From a virus: a DNA stretch of 23,451 nucleotides. The number at the start of each line of letters is the position of its first letter. The stretch's first letter is position 1. Positions 7,205 through 21,598 of this stretch are shown here, one piece after another. The DNA is taken from positions 1 to 23,451 of the IMG/VR virus record IMGVR_UViG_3300032722_001607; one strand, given 5' to 3'. The translations under genes were made by a program, and so were the position numbers. Under the pieces are notes generated by a model. The model saw only the letters and a list, made by a program, of their open reading frames with translations, ran no database searches and had not been told where the DNA came from.

Positions 7205-7936
7205 TCAGGGATAGTTGGTGGTGATGAGGGTGGTGTTGGTGGTAACGATCCAGCTAAACGTGCCGGTGCCGTTCGAGACCACGCAGGTGCCATAGCCGGC
7301 GTCCCCATAGTTTCCCGCCGCGCTGGTGGAAAACATCTTCGTGGCGTAAAGCTGGTTGGAGGTGGTTTCGATCGCATACATCCCGCCGGCCGACGGGTTG
7401 TAGGAAAAGAAAATCCCGTTCGTGCCCCTGTAAGGGACGGACGTGTTGGTGGTAGAATAATAACTCCCCGCCCCGATGCTGCCGGCCAGCACCACAAAGT
7501 TCGTCGTGGAGTTGGTTGTGCCCACCGTCACCACGTTGGTGGTGACGATGCCAACGCGCTGCGCGCCGCCGGCGAAGGTGTTGCTGGCGGTGAGGCTGCC
7601 GGGCGCGTTCGTCCCAAAATAATTCGAGGCCGTCAGCCAGCCCGGCGCGTTCGTCCCAAAATAATTCGAGGCCGTCAGCCAGCCCGGCGCGTTCGTCCCA
7701 AAACGGTTGGAGGCCGTCAAGCTGCCCGGCGCGTTCGTCCCAAAATAATTCGAGGCCGTCAGCCAGCCCGGCGCGTTCGTCCCAAAACGGTTGGAGGCCG
7801 TCAAGCTGCCCGGCGCGTTCGTCCCAAAGGCGGTGTTGGCGGTGATGCTCATGGGATAGTTGGTGCCGAACTGCGCGAGGGCGGTTGCCGCCACCAGGAC
7901 AGCCAGGCCGCAAAAAAATGATTTCGGGAATTTCAT
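7205..7936 (-). CDS. Exported 14-residue-repeat protein (243 aa)
   Basis: A Sec signal peptide (MKFPKSFFCG, then LAVLVAATALAQ) is followed at the predicted mature N-terminus (residue 23) by seven tandem 14-residue units of the form FGTNAPG[S/W]LTASN[R/Y]. They cover residues 23-120; the first unit is diverged. The C-terminal 120 residues are Thr/Asn/Gly-rich with many beta-prone stretches and no recognised domain. Upstream is a GC-rich hairpin (7947-7978) and an A/T-rich leader without Shine-Dalgarno. The gene stands among tail genes, six bases before the chaperone start. Repeats of this type suggest an elongated beta structure such as a fibre or surface protein, but whether it is a virion part or a host-altering exported protein cannot be told from the sequence. 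Confidence 0.75.
   Translation of the reverse strand: MKFPKSFFCGLAVLVAATALAQFGTNYPMSITANTAFGTNAPGSLTASNRFGTNAPGWLTASNYFGTNAPGSLTASNRFGTNAPGWLTASNYFGTNAPGWLTASNYFGTNAPGSLTASNTFAGGAQRVGIVTTNVVTVGTTNSTTNFVVLAGSIGAGSYYSTTNTSVPYRGTNGIFFSYNPSAGGMYAIETTSNQLYATKMFSTSAAGNYGDAGYGTCVVSNGTGTFSWIVTTNTTLITTNYP
7577..7870 (-). repeat. Seven in-frame 42-bp tandem repeats
   Basis: Six 42-bp units (7577-7828) plus one diverged unit (7829-7870) lie inside the exported-protein gene. Two unit types alternate: one encodes S at position 8 and R at 14, the other W and Y, in the order SR, WY, SR, WY, WY, then S with T. The three WY copies read the same base for base, as do the two full SR copies, which indicates recent expansion or gene conversion. 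The unit length is a multiple of three, so copy number can change without breaking the frame. Confidence 0.93.
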
Positions 7937-11765: not shown

Positions 11766-12977
11766 TTACTGGTTGGCGATGGTGAGCTGGCGGATGCCGC
11801 CGGCGTAGGTGATGACAATCTTCTCGTAGAACTCGACCGTGATGGCGACGAGCTTGGAGCTGATCTGCTGGACATACACCCGGAACAGGCCGCCGCCCTG
11901 CTCGCCGTCGAAGGTCGAGACAAAGCGCTTGATGTTGGACGGGTCTTCCGTGTCCACGTTGTCCTGCGCGTAGAAGGAATAAACCTTCGCGCCCAGGATT
12001 TCCGATTTGGCGGTCGCGCCGGACTGGTAGCGTTCGCGGCTGACATAGACCTTGTCCACGCCGAGCGCGGCGGCCAGCGCGGCCTCCGGGTTCGTGCCGT
12101 AGCCAAGGTAGCCGGCCGGGTTGTTCTGCGCGCCATACGCCTGCTGGCGGTAGAGCGCCGCCGTGTCGCCATAGGCCACGCGGTTGTTGCGGATGCCCGT
12201 GATGTTCGTCTGCGCCACGAGGTCGGCCACCACGTCCATGTCCGGGTTCACCGGGACCACGCCGGGGTTCACCGGCTGCGGTGCCCAGACCAGGTTGTTG
12301 TTCACGGCCGCCGCGCTGATCGCCGCGAGCGCGCGGCGGTAGCTGTTGCGGTAGAGCCGGCGGGTGAGCTTGGCCACCGCGTTCTGCTGCCAGCCGGGCA
12401 CCTGGCCCGCGCCGACGCCGGTGTCGGACACGTTGTCCAGGTCCACGATCAGCGTGAGCCCACGGTTGAGCGTCTTGTCGTTCACGTCCGTGCCGGTGTA
12501 TTTCACGGACTTGAAGTCCGCGCCGATCGCGCGCTGGTCGTCCACGAGTTCGGACATGAACTCCTCGGCGTTGTTCGCCGCCTTCCACTCGAAGCGGCGG
12601 CCCACCGGGACAGCCGGGGCGAAGAACTGCAGGGTCGCCTCGATGTCGTTCGGATCGCGCCAGCCGGTGGTGAAGTTCGTCAGCGGCTCGCTGTAGAAGG
12701 TTTCGAGGAACTGCGAATCGTTGGCGAAGATCGCCGCGAGACGCGGGTTCGTGTTCATGAAGCCAGAGAGGCGTTCATCGTAGCTGGTGGGGTGGAAGCT
12801 GCTGTCGTTGGCGAACAGCACCTGGCCGGCGCGATAGCCCTGACCGCGATCCAGCCCGACGATCGGCGCCTGGGCGTCAATCTCGTTGGCGAACTGCGGC
12901 AGGATGATCTTGCCGAAGCGAACCGGCTTGGCGCCGGCGGCCAAGATGGCCGATTTTACTTTGGTAGCATTTTTCAT
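11766..12977 (-). CDS. Major capsid protein (403 aa)
   Basis: It lies after protease/scaffold and cement-like genes and has the length of an HK97-fold capsid protein. Residues 1-86 are a distinct N-terminal region (MKNATKVKSAILAAGAKPVR onward) containing three Phe-Ala-Asn-Glu/Asp motifs at 29-31, 55-57 and 84-86. The likely core begins after the third, with FLETFYSEPL and FFAPAVPVGRRFEW. Later segments fit the capsid fold: a helix with RALAAISAAAVNNNL, NRVAYGDTAALYRQQAYG, GVDKVYVSRERY, and a C-terminal strand pair (KLVAITVEFYEKIVITYAGG). The N-terminal region is probably a delta-like domain removed at maturation. It has an A-rich leader (GACCAAATAAA) with no Shine-Dalgarno, as expected for strong SD-independent initiation. 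Confidence 0.8.
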   Translation of the reverse strand: MKNATKVKSAILAAGAKPVRFGKIILPQFANEIDAQAPIVGLDRGQGYRAGQVLFANDSSFHPTSYDERLSGFMNTNPRLAAIFANDSQFLETFYSEPLTNFTTGWRDPNDIEATLQFFAPAVPVGRRFEWKAANNAEEFMSELVDDQRAIGADFKSVKYTGTDVNDKTLNRGLTLIVDLDNVSDTGVGAGQVPGWQQNAVAKLTRRLYRNSYRRALAAISAAAVNNNLVWAPQPVNPGVVPVNPDMDVVADLVAQTNITGIRNNRVAYGDTAALYRQQAYGAQNNPAGYLGYGTNPEAALAAALGVDKVYVSRERYQSGATAKSEILGAKVYSFYAQDNVDTEDPSNIKRFVSTFDGEQGGGLFRVYVQQISSKLVAITVEFYEKIVITYAGGIRQLTIANQ

Positions 12978-13032
12978 TTTATTTGGTCGTTTGATGTTTT
13001 TGTTTTTTCATTTGGATGAAACGTCACGTTGG

Positions 13033-13680
13033 TCAGAACGCGAGCTTGCTGGGCAGGGTGTGGCGAACCTGGATCGTGTCGCCGGCGGCGGAACTGGCGT
13101 CGGTGCCGATCACCGCGATGCCGAAGATGCCGGCGTCACCCGTGGTGGCCTTGGTCGCCTGGCCAACCGCGCCGGACTTGACGTAGTCGCCGTCCGCGAT
13201 CGTGCCGTCCGTCTGGACGCGCAGCGTGCCCTTGGCCGCGCCGAGCAACTGGATGGCGATGGGCATACCTGCTTCCGCCTGGTCGTTCGACGGACCCAGC
13301 ACCACGTCGTTCAGGCCGGCGATGGCGGAGTGGTCCACATCCGTGCCCTTCTTGTAGAGCAGATAACGGCTCGCGGTGGCCGCGTCGGCGATGTAGGTCT
13401 TGACGCCATGCTCGAACGTGCCCTCACCAATGTTGGCGAAGCAGGCGGAACCTGCACTCATCTTGGGCGTGTCCAGCAGAATGCCGAACATCCGCTGGAT
13501 GAGCAGCGGTGCCAGATAAACCTTCCGCATGTGACTGCGGAAGAATTTCCGGTTGGCATTGCCGATGACCTGGCGACGGTGGGGTTGGCGTGCCTTTTGG
13601 ATAGCTGCGACCGCCAAGGCAAACATGGCGACCACAACCGCGACGAGCGCGACGACGAGGAACAGTGTGTTCATTTTCAT
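13033..13680 (-). CDS. Capsid cement-like protein with hydrophobic N-terminus (215 aa)
   Basis: Residues about 85-215 resemble DUF2190-type capsid cement proteins: SRYLLYKKGTDVDHSAIAG, VVLGPSNDQAEAGMPIAIQL, then LGAAKGTLRVQTDGTIADGD and GIFGIAVIGTDASSAAGD, a Gly-rich pseudo-repeated beta pattern. Uncommonly for the family there is an N-terminal hydrophobic helix (TLFLVVALVAVVVAMFALAV) followed by a basic segment. A Phe-Ala-Asn motif at 81-83 marks the junction to the cement domain and could be a maturation cleavage site. The start at 13680 (a second Met at 13674) is preferred to an upstream in-frame ATG at 13737, which would put a perfect hairpin in the coding part; the 13680 site has an A-rich leader. 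Confidence 0.62.
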   Translation of the reverse strand: MKMNTLFLVVALVAVVVAMFALAVAAIQKARQPHRRQVIGNANRKFFRSHMRKVYLAPLLIQRMFGILLDTPKMSAGSACFANIGEGTFEHGVKTYIADAATASRYLLYKKGTDVDHSAIAGLNDVVLGPSNDQAEAGMPIAIQLLGAAKGTLRVQTDGTIADGDYVKSGAVGQATKATTGDAGIFGIAVIGTDASSAAGDTIQVRHTLPSKLAF

Positions 13681-13715
13681 TTTCGTTTTTTCGTTTGTTG
13701 TTTTGGTTGTGCCCG

Positions 13716-13735
13716 GCCGCCCCTTGCGGGGCGGC
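13716..13735 (-). other. GNRA-capped hairpin upstream of the cement gene
   Basis: A perfect 8-bp stem closed by a four-base loop that reads GCAA on the minus strand (a GNRA tetraloop), so a very stable RNA hairpin is expected. It lies between the stop at 13746 and the A-rich leader of the cement gene. There is no T tract after it. Likely roles are mRNA processing or stability. Confidence 0.65.
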
Positions 13736-13745
13736 ATGGCGGTGA

Positions 13746-14054
13746 TTATTTCTTGGCGGTCTTTTTCTGGTTGCCGTGCTCGTCCTGGTAGGCGATGGCC
13801 ATGACGGCCTGCTCGCGGTTCAGCGCGCCGCCCGACTGGGAAATCTTCTGCGCGATGCGCTTCTCCAGTTTCGCGACGTTGGATTCCGGCTTCTCGACGT
13901 TCAGCTCCTGCAGGAGTTGATTCTCATCCGAGAGCAGGCCGTTTTGCTTACGCAAATCAGAGGCTTCAGCCATGACACCTTTGACGCACTCAACGATGAA
14001 TGCTTCGTCGGTGTCAGGTTTCAGTTTGAACAATTTAATCAGTTCTTCTTTCAT
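13746..14054 (-). CDS. Coiled-coil protein of the head cluster (102 aa)
   Basis: The product begins MKEELIKLFKLKPDTDEAFI and has a charged central coiled coil (ASDLRKQNGLLSDENQLLQE) and a Lys-rich end (KKTAKK). It lies between the protease/scaffold and cement genes. Small helical proteins in this place can be accessory scaffold or head-assembly proteins, but no family is recognised. There is a leader of 45 bases with A-rich sequence before the start. It lacks the Phe-Ala-Asn motif of its neighbours. Confidence 0.6.
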   Translation of the reverse strand: MKEELIKLFKLKPDTDEAFIVECVKGVMAEASDLRKQNGLLSDENQLLQELNVEKPESNVAKLEKRIAQKISQSGGALNREQAVMAIAYQDEHGNQKKTAKK

Positions 14055-14099
14055 GATGTTTTCGATTTTAGTTTTTGGTGTTGGTGGCAGCGGTCGCGC

Positions 14100-14810
14100 T
14101 TACTTTTTCTTGCCAGGCATTTTGATGTCCACCGACTGCATCCCCTCGAACAGCGCGGGGTGCCGGCGCTGGGCCTCGGCATAGATGCGGGTGTGGTCCT
14201 TGGTGCGGTTGAGCTTCAGCTCGACGGCGATCGCGCCCATGACTTCGTTGGCGAACGTCGCGCGGGCCTTGGGATCGGAGATGTCCACCTGTTCCGTCTT
14301 GCCACCGCGCTGGAGCGTGATGGACGTGGTCTTGACCTTGGCCGCGAGCGCGCGGAGGGCGGTGCGCTCGTTGGCGAACTGCGCCTCGGTTTTCAGCCGG
14401 CGTTCCCAGTCCGCCTGCTCGGCGGCCGTGATGCGGCCGGAGCTGATGCCCAGCGCCAGCTCGTCCTTGATGCGGTCGGCGCGCTCGTTGGCAAACCGGG
14501 TGTTCGCATCCGTGAGCGCGGTGGCGTTGCCTTTGATCTTCTCCTCGATCTGCGCGATCGTGGCGGCCGGGTCGGTGATCTCCGCCTCGTTGGCGAAGGT
14601 GATGCCCACCGAGGCGGCGAGGCCGACCAGTTTTTTCTTGATGCCCGTCGTGGCGGTTTCCCACGCGGTTTTGTCGTTCGCGAAGGTCGCGACCTTGGTT
14701 TCAATCTCGCCGATGGCGGATTCCATTTCGGTGTCAGTGGGCTCGGCGGCGTTGGCAAACGTCGGCTTGAGCGAGAGCGCTGCGAACAGCGCGATCAGTT
14801 TTTTCTTCAT
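14100..14810 (-). CDS. Nested scaffold product from internal start Met215 (236 aa)
   Basis: This is an in-frame internal start within the protease gene. The ATG at 14810 is preceded by an A-rich stretch (AACACCACAAACACA) just like the leaders of free-standing virion genes here. The encoded linker at that place (VKTNNTTNT) is low complexity. The product starts MKKKLIALFAALSLKPTFAN and consists of the helical scaffold half with six of the seven Phe-Ala-Asn motifs. This would give excess scaffold over protease, as in Mu Z and lambda Nu3. The first 20 residues are hydrophobic and look like a signal peptide, which is odd for a scaffold. Internal start is inferred, not shown. Confidence 0.5.
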   Translation of the reverse strand: MKKKLIALFAALSLKPTFANAAEPTDTEMESAIGEIETKVATFANDKTAWETATTGIKKKLVGLAASVGITFANEAEITDPAATIAQIEEKIKGNATALTDANTRFANERADRIKDELALGISSGRITAAEQADWERRLKTEAQFANERTALRALAAKVKTTSITLQRGGKTEQVDISDPKARATFANEVMGAIAVELKLNRTKDHTRIYAEAQRRHPALFEGMQSVDIKMPGKKK

Positions 14811-15452
14811 TGTGTTTGTGGTGTTGTTTGTTTTTACGTTTGCCGGCCCCGCTTCAGCGGGTTCGGCGAGAGTGTCGTCGGCATTAAAAAAGTGGACGGG
14901 CAGGTGCGGATTGTTCGTCAGGCCGGCGCTGACGATCTTCATGGGCCGGTAGCAGGGTTTGCCGTTGACCATCCCGCAGTCCTCGGAATCGCACAGGTCG
15001 CCGCTGAACGCCTTCAGGCGTTTCGCCAGGTCGGCGCCTTCCACCAGCTCACTGCCTTCGTTGGTGAACACCGGCAGGCCGTAGAGCCCGTCGGCGCGCA
15101 CTTCGAGATCGGCGAACACGCCCTTGGCTTCCTTGTCCGGATAAAACTTGCCCAGGCCGGGAACGTGCGGATGGCCGACGTAGATGTTGCAACCCTTGAT
15201 GAATTTGCGGAAACCGCGCTGCTCGTTGTGGAACGTCGCCACCATCGCGTCCGCGCCCGTCTTATCAATGCGCTGGATCGCGGGCACCTTCTTCATGCCG
15301 CCCTTGCCGTCCGGCAGCAGCGCCGGCGACGGATGATCGCCGAAGGGCGCAATCATCGCCCAGCCGTCCGCGCCGATACTGATCTCGTTGCAGAAGCCGA
15401 CCAGCGTGGCACTGGTGGAATCGTTTGCGAACATGACGAATTGGGTTTTCAT
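14100..15452 (-). CDS. Prohead protease / scaffold, Mu I-like (450 aa)
   Basis: The N-terminal half (about 1-200) resembles the Mu-like prophage I protein protease: GWAMIAPFGDHPSPALLPDG, a His pair in YVGHPHVPGLG (94, 96), GVFADLEVRADGLYGLP, KAFSGDL (Ser150), and IVSAGLTNNPHLPV, the typical LTN-P ending. His94 or His96 and Ser150 are possible catalytic residues, by position only. A Thr/Asn linker (TNNTTNT) leads to a helical scaffold half from about 215 to 450 with Met215 as an internal start. Phe-Ala-Asn occurs seven times (8-10, 232-234, 257-259, 286-288, 320-322, 359-361, 400-402). A protease fused to its scaffold with a nested scaffold start is known in Mu (I and Z) and lambda (C and Nu3). 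Start overlaps the portal stop by ATGA. Confidence 0.82.
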   Translation of the reverse strand: MKTQFVMFANDSTSATLVGFCNEISIGADGWAMIAPFGDHPSPALLPDGKGGMKKVPAIQRIDKTGADAMVATFHNEQRGFRKFIKGCNIYVGHPHVPGLGKFYPDKEAKGVFADLEVRADGLYGLPVFTNEGSELVEGADLAKRLKAFSGDLCDSEDCGMVNGKPCYRPMKIVSAGLTNNPHLPVHFFNADDTLAEPAEAGPANVKTNNTTNTMKKKLIALFAALSLKPTFANAAEPTDTEMESAIGEIETKVATFANDKTAWETATTGIKKKLVGLAASVGITFANEAEITDPAATIAQIEEKIKGNATALTDANTRFANERADRIKDELALGISSGRITAAEQADWERRLKTEAQFANERTALRALAAKVKTTSITLQRGGKTEQVDISDPKARATFANEVMGAIAVELKLNRTKDHTRIYAEAQRRHPALFEGMQSVDIKMPGKKK

Positions 15453-17326
15453 GCTTTGGGTTTTTCCCCGGCGATGCCGTTGGCGAGGTTCGCCGACAGG
15501 ATTTTGTAGATGGCGTTGGCCACGGCTGGATCGTGGTCGAGATTCTTTTTGAGCTTGCCCAGGTCGGCGAGGATCGCGGCGAGCTTTTGTTTCTGCACCT
15601 CCGCGTCGGTTATTTCCGCCACGGCGGCGAGCCGTTGGTTGATGCCGGCAAACTCGGACAGCACGGCCTCGACGACGAGCGCCTGGCTTTTTGTATCCAG
15701 ATGGTTCGCGTTGGCGAACTCCGGGTTCTTGTCTGTCTTACTGGGCGGAATGAGCGGCTTGCCGTCCGGCCCGGTGCCCGGTGCCGGCGCGGCCACTTCC
15801 GCCACGTCCTCGTCGGGTTTCGGCAGCGCACGGGAATAGCGTTCCATGAGCGCCTGCAGGCCCAGCACGCCCCGGCCATCCTTGTCCTTCACGGTCGCGA
15901 GGAACTCGTCCACCGCCAGATCATCCTGGATGTTCCGGCGCGGCGTGGTGCGCAGCTTGACGTAAGCCAGGCGTTCCGCGTCCGGGCCGAACTTCCACGC
16001 GAGCGCAAACTTGGTGACCTTGCTGTCGAGCGTTTCCTCCAGCAGCTTCGCGTCGTCGGTCTCGAGGATTTCCGACTCGTCTTCCTGCAAACTCGCGCCA
16101 GTGGAGTTTTTGCCGCTGGTCGTGCCCAGGTCGCCACCGCGCCAGAGCTGCGTGATGCTCCGGTCGAAGACGGCGATGAACTTTTCAAAGCCGGCTTCGC
16201 CGCTGGCCTTGGCCTCGACGAGCGAGAGGTCGGCGTTGCGGTTGGTGACCGCGCTCCATTCCTGCGCGAAGTCCTGCACCGCCGTCACAAAATCATTCCA
16301 CTCCGGCGAATCCTTCACGGCGTCCGTCTTGCCATGGATGCCCGGCATCCCGAACTTGTCGAGATACGCCAGGCCGGATTTCAGCACCAGCGACTTCATC
16401 AGATAGACGACGCTGCACGCCTCCATGATGCCGTCGCCGCACGTCACCAGCCATTCGCCCGGCATCATCTCGTTGCCGTAGATCTGAAATTCGCTGGGCA
16501 GGAAACGCAGCTTCCCGCGCGTGCCCTCAAACCACCAGATCGGGCAGAAGATGAATTTCGCCGTCAGCTCGCCGCCCTCGGTGGCATCATCGGCCGCCAT
16601 CGGCTGCCAGACGATCTCGTGGACGGCGAAGTATTTACCGATCGCGTCCATCATCTGCCGGACCAGCAGCGAGAAGCCACCTTCCTCGTCCGGGTTCAGC
16701 GCGGTCGTGGCGGAGACATTCGCGTAAAAATTGTCGAGGAAATCCTTTTGCTGTTGCGCCAGGGTTTTTTGCGAATCGTCCACGTCCTCGCGGATCAGGA
16801 TGTCGTAGCCGTGGCGCGCGACGCTCTTCATCCGCTTGGGCCGGCAGATCTGGAGCTGGTAGTCGCGGCGCTCCATCGTGTCCCACGCCATGCCGGCGCT
16901 GCGGAAGAAACCGAGCCGCCACTGGTCGAGCGCCGTGACGAGCCGTTCGAAGGTCAGACCCTTGATCGGATTATTACGCATCCGCACCGAGAGCGTGACG
17001 CGGCCGGGCGTGATGCTGGCGTCGGGCGCATTCTTATATTGGCCGCCCCGGTTGCGCGGCTGCCGGAAATAATCTTCCTGGTCCGGCGACCCCGAACCTC
17101 GGGTTGGCGGCTTGCCGAACTGGCTCGTGGCCGGCCGCTGATCCGCCCCGCGCGACTGCCGCGAGGAGTTGCCGAGCTTGGGGTTGGTCGGGAACTCGTT
17201 GGAGACGGCATTGGCGAACCGGCGCTGATCCTTGCCGGACAGTTTTTGGAAGGTGGCGACAACGCCGGCCAGGGCAGTTTCCAGCCCAATGGTTTTCACC
17301 CCACCCTTTTTGGCGGATTTACGCAT
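15449..17326 (-). CDS. Portal protein, DUF935 / Mu gp29-like (625 aa)
   Basis: Portal proteins form the twelve-fold ring through which DNA is packed. Recognisable parts of the DUF935 family are RNNPIKGLTFERLVTALDQW (118-136), RDYQLQICRPKRMKSVARHG (154-173), FAVHEIVWQP, GEWLVTCGDGIMEACSVVYL (290-309), LDKFGMPGIHGK (322-333) and DRSITQLWRGGDLGTTS (about 390). A 100-residue Arg/Gln/Gly-rich N-terminal extension with a Phe-Ala-Asn at 37-39, and a 110-residue C-terminal region with another at 537-539, are additions to the roughly 500-residue core. The gene overlaps the 51-aa gene by eight bases at its start. That overlap contains AAGAAGGGGGTTAGCC before the ATG, one of the few plausible Shine-Dalgarno sites here. 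Confidence 0.88.
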   Translation of the reverse strand: MRKSAKKGGVKTIGLETALAGVVATFQKLSGKDQRRFANAVSNEFPTNPKLGNSSRQSRGADQRPATSQFGKPPTRGSGSPDQEDYFRQPRNRGGQYKNAPDASITPGRVTLSVRMRNNPIKGLTFERLVTALDQWRLGFFRSAGMAWDTMERRDYQLQICRPKRMKSVARHGYDILIREDVDDSQKTLAQQQKDFLDNFYANVSATTALNPDEEGGFSLLVRQMMDAIGKYFAVHEIVWQPMAADDATEGGELTAKFIFCPIWWFEGTRGKLRFLPSEFQIYGNEMMPGEWLVTCGDGIMEACSVVYLMKSLVLKSGLAYLDKFGMPGIHGKTDAVKDSPEWNDFVTAVQDFAQEWSAVTNRNADLSLVEAKASGEAGFEKFIAVFDRSITQLWRGGDLGTTSGKNSTGASLQEDESEILETDDAKLLEETLDSKVTKFALAWKFGPDAERLAYVKLRTTPRRNIQDDLAVDEFLATVKDKDGRGVLGLQALMERYSRALPKPDEDVAEVAAPAPGTGPDGKPLIPPSKTDKNPEFANANHLDTKSQALVVEAVLSEFAGINQRLAAVAEITDAEVQKQKLAAILADLGKLKKNLDHDPAVANAIYKILSANLANGIAGEKPKA

Positions 17327-20821: not shown

Positions 20822-21598
20822 TTATTTGGGCGTGATAATGAGTTCACCGAAGGTCTGCGCCGAATGCGTCCGGGCATTCACGGCGCGGTTCTGGGTGACG
20901 ATGGGCTTCAGGTTGCAGCCGGAGAAAAGCTCGCGCGTGAACGGACTGTCGTTCAGCGTCACGATCCACCGGCCTTTGAGGTTGCCGACTTCGCGGCGGA
21001 ACGCGGTCAGTTGTTTTTCGTCCCAGCCCTTGTAGCCACCGTTGGTCGCATTCTGGTAGGGCGGGTCGATAAAATGAAACGTGTCCTTCGAGTCGTAGTT
21101 TTTGAACATGCGGTCGTAGGAAATGTTTTCCACAACGACCCCGTTCAAACGCTTGTGCGCGTCGCCGATCAGGACGGAAACCTTGGTGTGGTCAAAGCCC
21201 ACGCCGCCGCCCTTCGTCTTCGCCACGCCGAAGCTGTGCATGTTGCCGCCGAAGCTCGTGCGGTTCACCAGGAGAAACCGCGCCGCGCGTTGCAGCTCGG
21301 TCAGGCCCGGCTGCTCCACGAAGTCGTGCAGGTTCTGGCGGCTGGCGAACAGCCAGTCCAGTTCGCCGAGCAGCGCCGGCAGATGGAACTGGAGATTGCG
21401 ATAGAGCGCGATCAGGTTGCCGTTGATGTCATTGATGACCTCGGTCGAGGAACGCATCTTCGCAAACAGCACCGCGCCGCCGCCAAAGAACGGCTCGCAG
21501 TAGCAGACGTGCGGCGGGATCAGCGGCAAGATATGTTTCAGCATCCGGCTCTTGCTGCCCTGCCAGCGCAGGATGGGTTTGGCGCGTTGCTCGGTCAC
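20822..21598 (-). CDS. DNA adenine methylase, D12 class (258 aa)
   Basis: The protein is an N6-adenine methyltransferase of the Dam / D12 type. Visible motifs are RWQGSKS (11-17, the K-W-x-G-S-K type start), the S-adenosylmethionine-binding loop EPFFGGGA (35-42), VINDINGNLI (54-63), and catalytic DPPY at 178-181 in HFIDPPYQNA. The length (258) is near that of Dam (about 270). In phages such enzymes protect DNA from host restriction or mark it for other proteins. The ATG overlaps the lipase stop by four bases, so the two are co-expressed. It stands before the packaging genes. Confidence 0.9.
   Translation of the reverse strand: MTEQRAKPILRWQGSKSRMLKHILPLIPPHVCYCEPFFGGGAVLFAKMRSSTEVINDINGNLIALYRNLQFHLPALLGELDWLFASRQNLHDFVEQPGLTELQRAARFLLVNRTSFGGNMHSFGVAKTKGGGVGFDHTKVSVLIGDAHKRLNGVVVENISYDRMFKNYDSKDTFHFIDPPYQNATNGGYKGWDEKQLTAFRREVGNLKGRWIVTLNDSPFTRELFSGCNLKPIVTQNRAVNARTHSAQTFGELIITPK

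Follow-up and report, generated by a model that had tools for sequence, protein, structure and literature searches.

The tripeptide Phe-Ala-Asn (FAN), which recurs in the prohead proteins of the virus studied here, is very probably the site at which the phage's own Mu I-like prohead protease, with a fold resembling T4 gp21, recognises and cuts its substrates. We infer cleavage from the distribution of the motif, its conservation and coupled change among relatives, the predicted folds, the N-termini of homologues, the presence of Asn at both borders of the protease domain and a parallel in phage Mu. The consensus would comprise Phe or Leu at P3, a small residue at P2, Asn at P1 and Glu, Ala or Asp at P1', and by analogy with T4 and SPN3US the bond cut is most likely the one following the Asn. 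The window, meaning the whole stretch of DNA that was analysed, is a virus record of 23,451 bases, whose minus strand carries a head operon. This runs from the terminase and portal through the protease/scaffold and a small protein to cement and capsid, and head-tail and tail genes follow (Table 1).

Table 1. Head genes of the window and the candidate protease sites within them (numbers after a motif are residues of the protein)
Feature	Position	Strand	Basis
Portal protein	15449..17326	-	PF06074 Portal_Mu, E 1.9e-44, residues 148-477
Portal N-terminal FANA 37-39, weak candidate	17210..17218	-	FAN/FVN in closest relatives only
Portal C-terminal site FANA 537-539, 88 residues from end	15710..15718	-	similar sites in long portals
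Mu I-like prohead protease fused to scaffold, 450 aa	14100..15452	-	fold match; relatives match PF10123
FAN 8-10, protease N-terminal site	15423..15431	-	FAN/FCN/LAN there in most relatives
FCN 20-22, N-terminal border of protease domain	15387..15395	-	N22 invariant in 35 relatives
FFN 188-190, C-terminal border of protease domain	14883..14891	-	N190 invariant in 35 relatives
Candidate separate scaffold product, internal ATG at residue 215 (MKKKLIAL...)	14100..14810	-	likeness to Mu Z
Scaffold site FANA 232-234	14751..14759	-	in-frame FAN
Scaffold site FAND 257-259	14676..14684	-	in-frame FAN
Scaffold site FANE 286-288	14589..14597	-	in-frame FAN
Scaffold site FANE 320-322	14487..14495	-	in-frame FAN
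Scaffold site FANE 359-361	14370..14378	-	in-frame FAN
Scaffold site FANE 400-402	14247..14255	-	in-frame FAN
Cement (decoration) protein, membrane-helix-like N-terminal segment before site	13033..13680	-	relatives match PF09956
Cement site FANI 81-83	13432..13440	-	N83 invariant in 25 relatives
Major capsid protein, HK97 fold, putative N-terminal propeptide of ~86 residues	11766..12977	-	predicted structure
Capsid site FANE 29-31, inside propeptide	12885..12893	-	in-frame FAN
Capsid site FAND 55-57, inside propeptide	12807..12815	-	in-frame FAN
Capsid site FAND 84-86, putative final maturation cut after N86	12720..12728	-	border motif, homologue N-termini

The minus strand encodes 13 in-frame FAN triplets, seven in the protease/scaffold, three in the capsid protein, two in the portal and one in the cement protein. 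This recount agrees with the first-pass annotation, which had already placed the triplet in prohead proteins only and had given the correct residue coordinates; those of the cement protein hold when translation starts at the ATG of MKMNTL, which puts the triplet at residue 81 as opposed to 100 from an upstream ATG. FAN is absent from the other 20 called proteins (5,324 aa; 1.27 expected), and the residue that follows it is Asp or Glu at nine of the 13 sites, as had been noted. The genome is rich in G+C, which makes the codons of FAN common and could favour an excess by chance or composition; however, the composition of the portal, protease/scaffold, cement and capsid proteins predicts only 0.48 triplets over all four, as low an expectation as had been claimed, and the highest total among 20,000 within-protein shuffles was five. 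Since the positions are also kept across relatives, the probability of such an origin is negligible. A nonamer recurring at the DNA level was ruled out: the pattern TTYGCNAAY has 13 matches on the coding strand, all of them in-frame FAN sites, and four on the other strand. This confinement indicates that selection acts on the protein, as proposed earlier, although the codon variety offered in support is modest, with TTC GCC AAC used at eight of the 13 sites.

The protease core spans approximately residues 23-190 of the fusion protein with the scaffold lying downstream. Its structural model is of moderate quality (pLDDT 60) and in the VIA search finds its best PDB match in T4 gp21 (5jbl; Z 8.8 over 132 aa, model residues 12-176), followed by the protease of HCMV (Z 4.0), beyond which no family stood clearly above background. 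The model thus assigns the protein to the T4 gp21/herpesvirus assemblin fold. When searched singly, the protease, capsid and cement proteins of the window gave no Pfam match at the cut-offs, the protease falling below the reporting limit for PF10123 (Mu-like_Pro); 15 of 28 members of its family do match PF10123 (best 1.8e-29), which together with the fold bears out its earlier identification as Mu I-like. Invariance was checked at five positions, and N22, H94, S150, S175 and N190 are each invariant in 35 protease-scaffold relatives, which makes H94 and S150 candidates for the catalytic His and Ser of this fold. N22 lies at the start of the protease domain and N190, in the context FFNA, LLNE, LANA or similar, at its end, so that the same pattern frames the domain. 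The two triplets concerned, FCN 20-22 and FFN 188-190, had been overlooked by the first-pass annotation; the former may be structural instead of a cut site. The internal Met215 is preceded by an A-rich leader, AAAACAAACAACACCACAAACACA, an arrangement also seen in relatives, and the scaffold may additionally be produced from this start. The fusion, the putative nested start and the Portal_Mu gene upstream correspond to the PF10123-type layout.

A search with the capsid and protease of the window returned 39 non-redundant related loci, some of them incomplete; those in named genomes belong to Pedosphaera, one MAG of Kiritimatiellaeota and further Verrucomicrobiota. When 35-39 related phages of Verrucomicrobiota and Kiritimatiellota are compared, the motif broadens to [F/L]-[small]-N-[E/A/D]; thus the claim that a Mu I-like protease cuts at FAN is supported in its substance, but was drawn too narrowly and missed the two sites framing the protease. 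At the border of the capsid core (xxF.E.YF.EPLT..GWRDPN), where the motif is found in 37 loci, the triplet reads FAN, FCN, LAN, LSN, LVN, IAN or AAN, and Asn is always there where the region is present. The part upstream of this border varies among relatives in both length and sequence. As the regular expression that collected the capsid sites demanded an Asn, its invariance rests on the alignments, in which it is kept throughout 36 capsids and 25 cement proteins, as are N22 and N190 in the 35 proteases. Alignment of homologues had been suggested as a check, as had counting across related phages, and the latter gave the same picture: over the 39 loci the ratio of observed to expected [FLIM][ACSV]N is 7.5 in the protease-scaffold, 3.6 in cement, 2.4 in capsid and 1.9 in portal proteins, compared with 231 observed against 230.2 expected (1.00) in the other proteins (106,566 aa).

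The preference is sharpest in the scaffolds. In 35 of them, Asn occupies the third place of [FLIM][ACSVT]N 143 times against 21.0-21.6 expected (6.8-fold) and is the sole residue enriched there, the next best reaching 1.5-fold. Phe is enriched 22-fold and Leu 6.7-fold at the first place, and the Asn is followed by Glu 83 times (2.1 expected) and by Ala 37 times (3.8 expected). The T4-type pattern [LI]xE is depleted (0.77-fold) in the same 35 scaffolds. Individual sites are sometimes lost, appearing as LATER and LAAER in two relatives, and the scaffold of locus L042 has no site starting with F, L, I or M.

The triplet also changes in concert between proteins. Loci L018, L021 and L022 carry FCN in the capsid, the cement protein and the protease N-terminus, nearly all of L028-L038 carry LAN in the capsid, cement and protease, and the same three proteins read LSN/LCN/LCN in L041 and AAN/AHN/ACN in L042. 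When capsids were clustered at 75% identity and the first residue of the triplet was compared, capsid and cement agreed in 11 of 16 clusters (5.4 expected, p 0.003), capsid and protease in 10 of 15 (p 0.008), and cement and protease in 11 of 15 (p 0.001). Clustering at 60% identity left five clusters, with which the test has no power, and the coupling was not significant. The sharing of one variant by three unrelated proteins is what a common recogniser would be expected to produce.

The capsid border site is supported by homologues that lack the extension. Almost all of residues 1-106 of the capsid model have a pLDDT below 50, and the remainder is predicted to adopt the HK97 fold, with 3bjq as the best PDB match (Z 20.4, model residues 86-403) and Z scores of 14.5 against HK97 1ohg (model residues 104-402) and 15.7 against T4 5vf3. 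PF10123 was found in 93 of 289 genomes, representing other Mu-like prophages of Verrucomicrobiota, whose capsids of about 310 aa are homologous to that of the window without having the N-terminal extension. In the capsids of L092 (E 1.6e-11), L105 (1.9e-10) and L102 (3.5e-7), Met1 aligns to window residues 87, 88 and 87, respectively. Were the window capsid cut after N86, it would thus begin where these homologues do, in agreement with the removal of the N-terminal region predicted in the first-pass annotation. Among short cement homologues the three best start at window residues 80-84, where the site is at 83, and weaker ones scatter. The NR clade consists of the Verrucomicrobia Mu-like prophages L067, L074, L079, L082, L089, L090-L094 and L102-L105.

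Twelve of 25 cement relatives match PF09956 (Phage_cement_2; best 5.4e-10), and a hydrophobic segment precedes the site in 29 of 36 relatives. The N-terminus of the window cement protein (13440-13680, minus strand) is strongly hydrophobic and resembles a membrane helix (Kyte-Doolittle 3.2), a property not found in the mature part. Cleavage could free a membrane-held precursor; T4 proheads leave the membrane around maturation (PMC9026906) and proheads of SPN3US protease mutants remain membrane-bound (PMC10052503). In several long portals C-terminal sites lie 84-104 aa from the end, and no site is present in the LAN-group portals, most of which are 439-459 aa and have no C-terminal extension. 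The C-terminal portal site is thus well supported as judged from the sequences, but the N-terminal one is poorly conserved and the weakest candidate of all, so that of the two portal extensions once thought to be removed only the loss of the C-terminal one can be proposed with some assurance.

A docking motif used for the co-assembly of the prohead, binding a pocket on the capsid, scaffold or protease and remaining uncut, would likewise be common to all prohead components, be repeated in the scaffold and yield coupled change between proteins. Docking does not account for a triplet that stands where the variable N-terminus of the capsid meets its conserved core, exactly at the point where extension-free homologues start, nor for its presence at either end of the protease domain. 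The extension-free capsids of the NR clade have no N-terminal site either; we consider docking improbable. Somewhat less remote, though still unlikely, is a cut through the same motif before the Asn (FA/N). Herpesvirus proteases cut after Ala, as in the A/S bond of their assemblins, they share the predicted fold (HCMV, Z 4.0), and P2 of the window motif is often Ala. Yet the residue preceding N22 and N190 may be A, C, S, V, T, F, L, M, P or G with the Asn itself invariant, and T4, phiKZ and SPN3US keep their constant residue at P1 (PMC5694885).

If the triplet is a cleavage site cut after Asn, the protease would free itself within the assembled prohead at Asn10/Asn22 and Asn190 and chop the scaffold into pieces of roughly 25-40 residues. 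The capsid protein would lose its first 86 residues and the cement protein its hydrophobic N-terminus, although the proposal does not account for how an internal protease would reach the cement protein. The portal would be trimmed at its C-terminus and perhaps also at its N-terminus, and these steps together would clear the interior for DNA. The presumed order is self-release, fragmentation of the scaffold, removal of propeptides and trimming of the portal.

Head maturation by a dedicated protease is a known theme; the novelty would lie in Asn taking the place of Glu and in motifs that differ between lineages and are legible in the repeats of the scaffold. The T4 protease recognises L/I-x-E and cuts after the Glu (PMC9026906), that of SPN3US recognises A-x-E (PMC10052503), and P1 is Glu in T4, phiKZ, 201phi2-1 and SPN3US (PMC5694885). 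The window protease resembles T4 gp21 in its predicted fold, a very short motif in which P3 is hydrophobic and a single residue, presumably P1, is constant, several sites in the scaffold and propeptides, and a presumed internal start codon in the gene. Unlike in T4 gp21 the constant residue is Asn instead of the Glu of T4-type specificity, and protease and scaffold form one gene. With SPN3US gp245 and phiKZ gp175 (A-x-E, S-x-E) it shares a short motif, many redundant propeptide sites and, as predicted for the window, the capsid, the portal and the protease itself as substrates, but those enzymes of giant phages cut after Glu and their scaffold is unfused. The likeness to Mu gpI/Z comprises the PF10123 family, the Portal_Mu-type gene upstream, the fused and nested layout and the portal C-terminal site; however, Mu repeats ALSA where the window has FAN, and Mu gpT has no N-terminal propeptide according to its record note. 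In HK97 an N-terminal extension is removed from the HK97-fold capsid protein. A comparable removable extension is predicted for the window capsid, but in HK97 it serves as the scaffold, whereas the window has a separate scaffold and its extension bears three sites.

Other lineages of the family display scaffold motifs of their own. The protease-scaffolds of the NR clade repeat hydrophobic-x-N-R, with 61 copies against 2.7 expected (22.8-fold), compared with five against 2.2 in portals, where sites are present in some and lacking in others, and 21 against 17.5 in the other proteins. In this clade ILNR precedes the DGW that opens the protease domain, and Mu has AALN..DGW at the position of N22. 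The protease-scaffold of L060 repeats AFSD. Mu gpI (L056, AF083977) contains LSA six times against 0.24 expected, in ALSA repeats, of which the copy at 128-130 within the protease domain may be structural. The Mu portal H has a single copy, at residues 429-431 within KEAALSAEDI, 82 aa from its end. This ALSA falls within the stretch of the portal C-terminus that the Mu virion structure lacks: the cryo-EM paper reports that the last 124 portal residues are absent and attributes this to protease I (PMC11915804, citing Grimaud 1996). In JBD30, a Mu-like phage with a structure, there is only a weak repeat, AALT, and the portal has no [AV]L[ST]A, and this phage speaks neither for nor against a code written in the scaffold. 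It is likely that a Mu-type lineage switched P1 to Asn and that throughout the family the scaffold repeats the motif cut by its own protease (FAN-E, xxN-R, AFS-D, ALS-A), so that the specificity of the enzyme shifts in step with every one of its sites in a manner readable from sequence. Such a code would predict that the Mu portal is cut after Ser430.

The open-licence literature yielded no stated cut site for Mu protease I and no Asn-directed prohead protease. An Asn-directed enzyme whose motif is spelled out in its scaffold would make head maturation sites predictable in uncultured phages and would provide a natural enzyme-substrate series for protease specificity co-evolving with several substrates at once, in addition to a concrete prediction for the Mu portal, whose processing by protease I is reported.

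Some further features of the window may be mentioned. A-rich leaders precede the internal scaffold, cement and capsid ATGs (14811-14834, 13681-13710 and 12978-13010, minus strand) and show no clear Shine-Dalgarno sequence, which suggests that these phages share a start signal of a non-SD kind. Adjoining the tail genes, the protein encoded at 7205-7936 (minus strand) contains a unit of about 15 residues, FGTNAPG(S/W)LTASN, several times in tandem and is possibly a fibre or surface protein. Near the terminase genes, the product of 20822-21598 (minus strand) looks like a DNA adenine methylase of the Dam type, with FFGGGAVLFAK and DPPYQ recognised by eye, and a protein similar to it is found upstream of the portal in L010.
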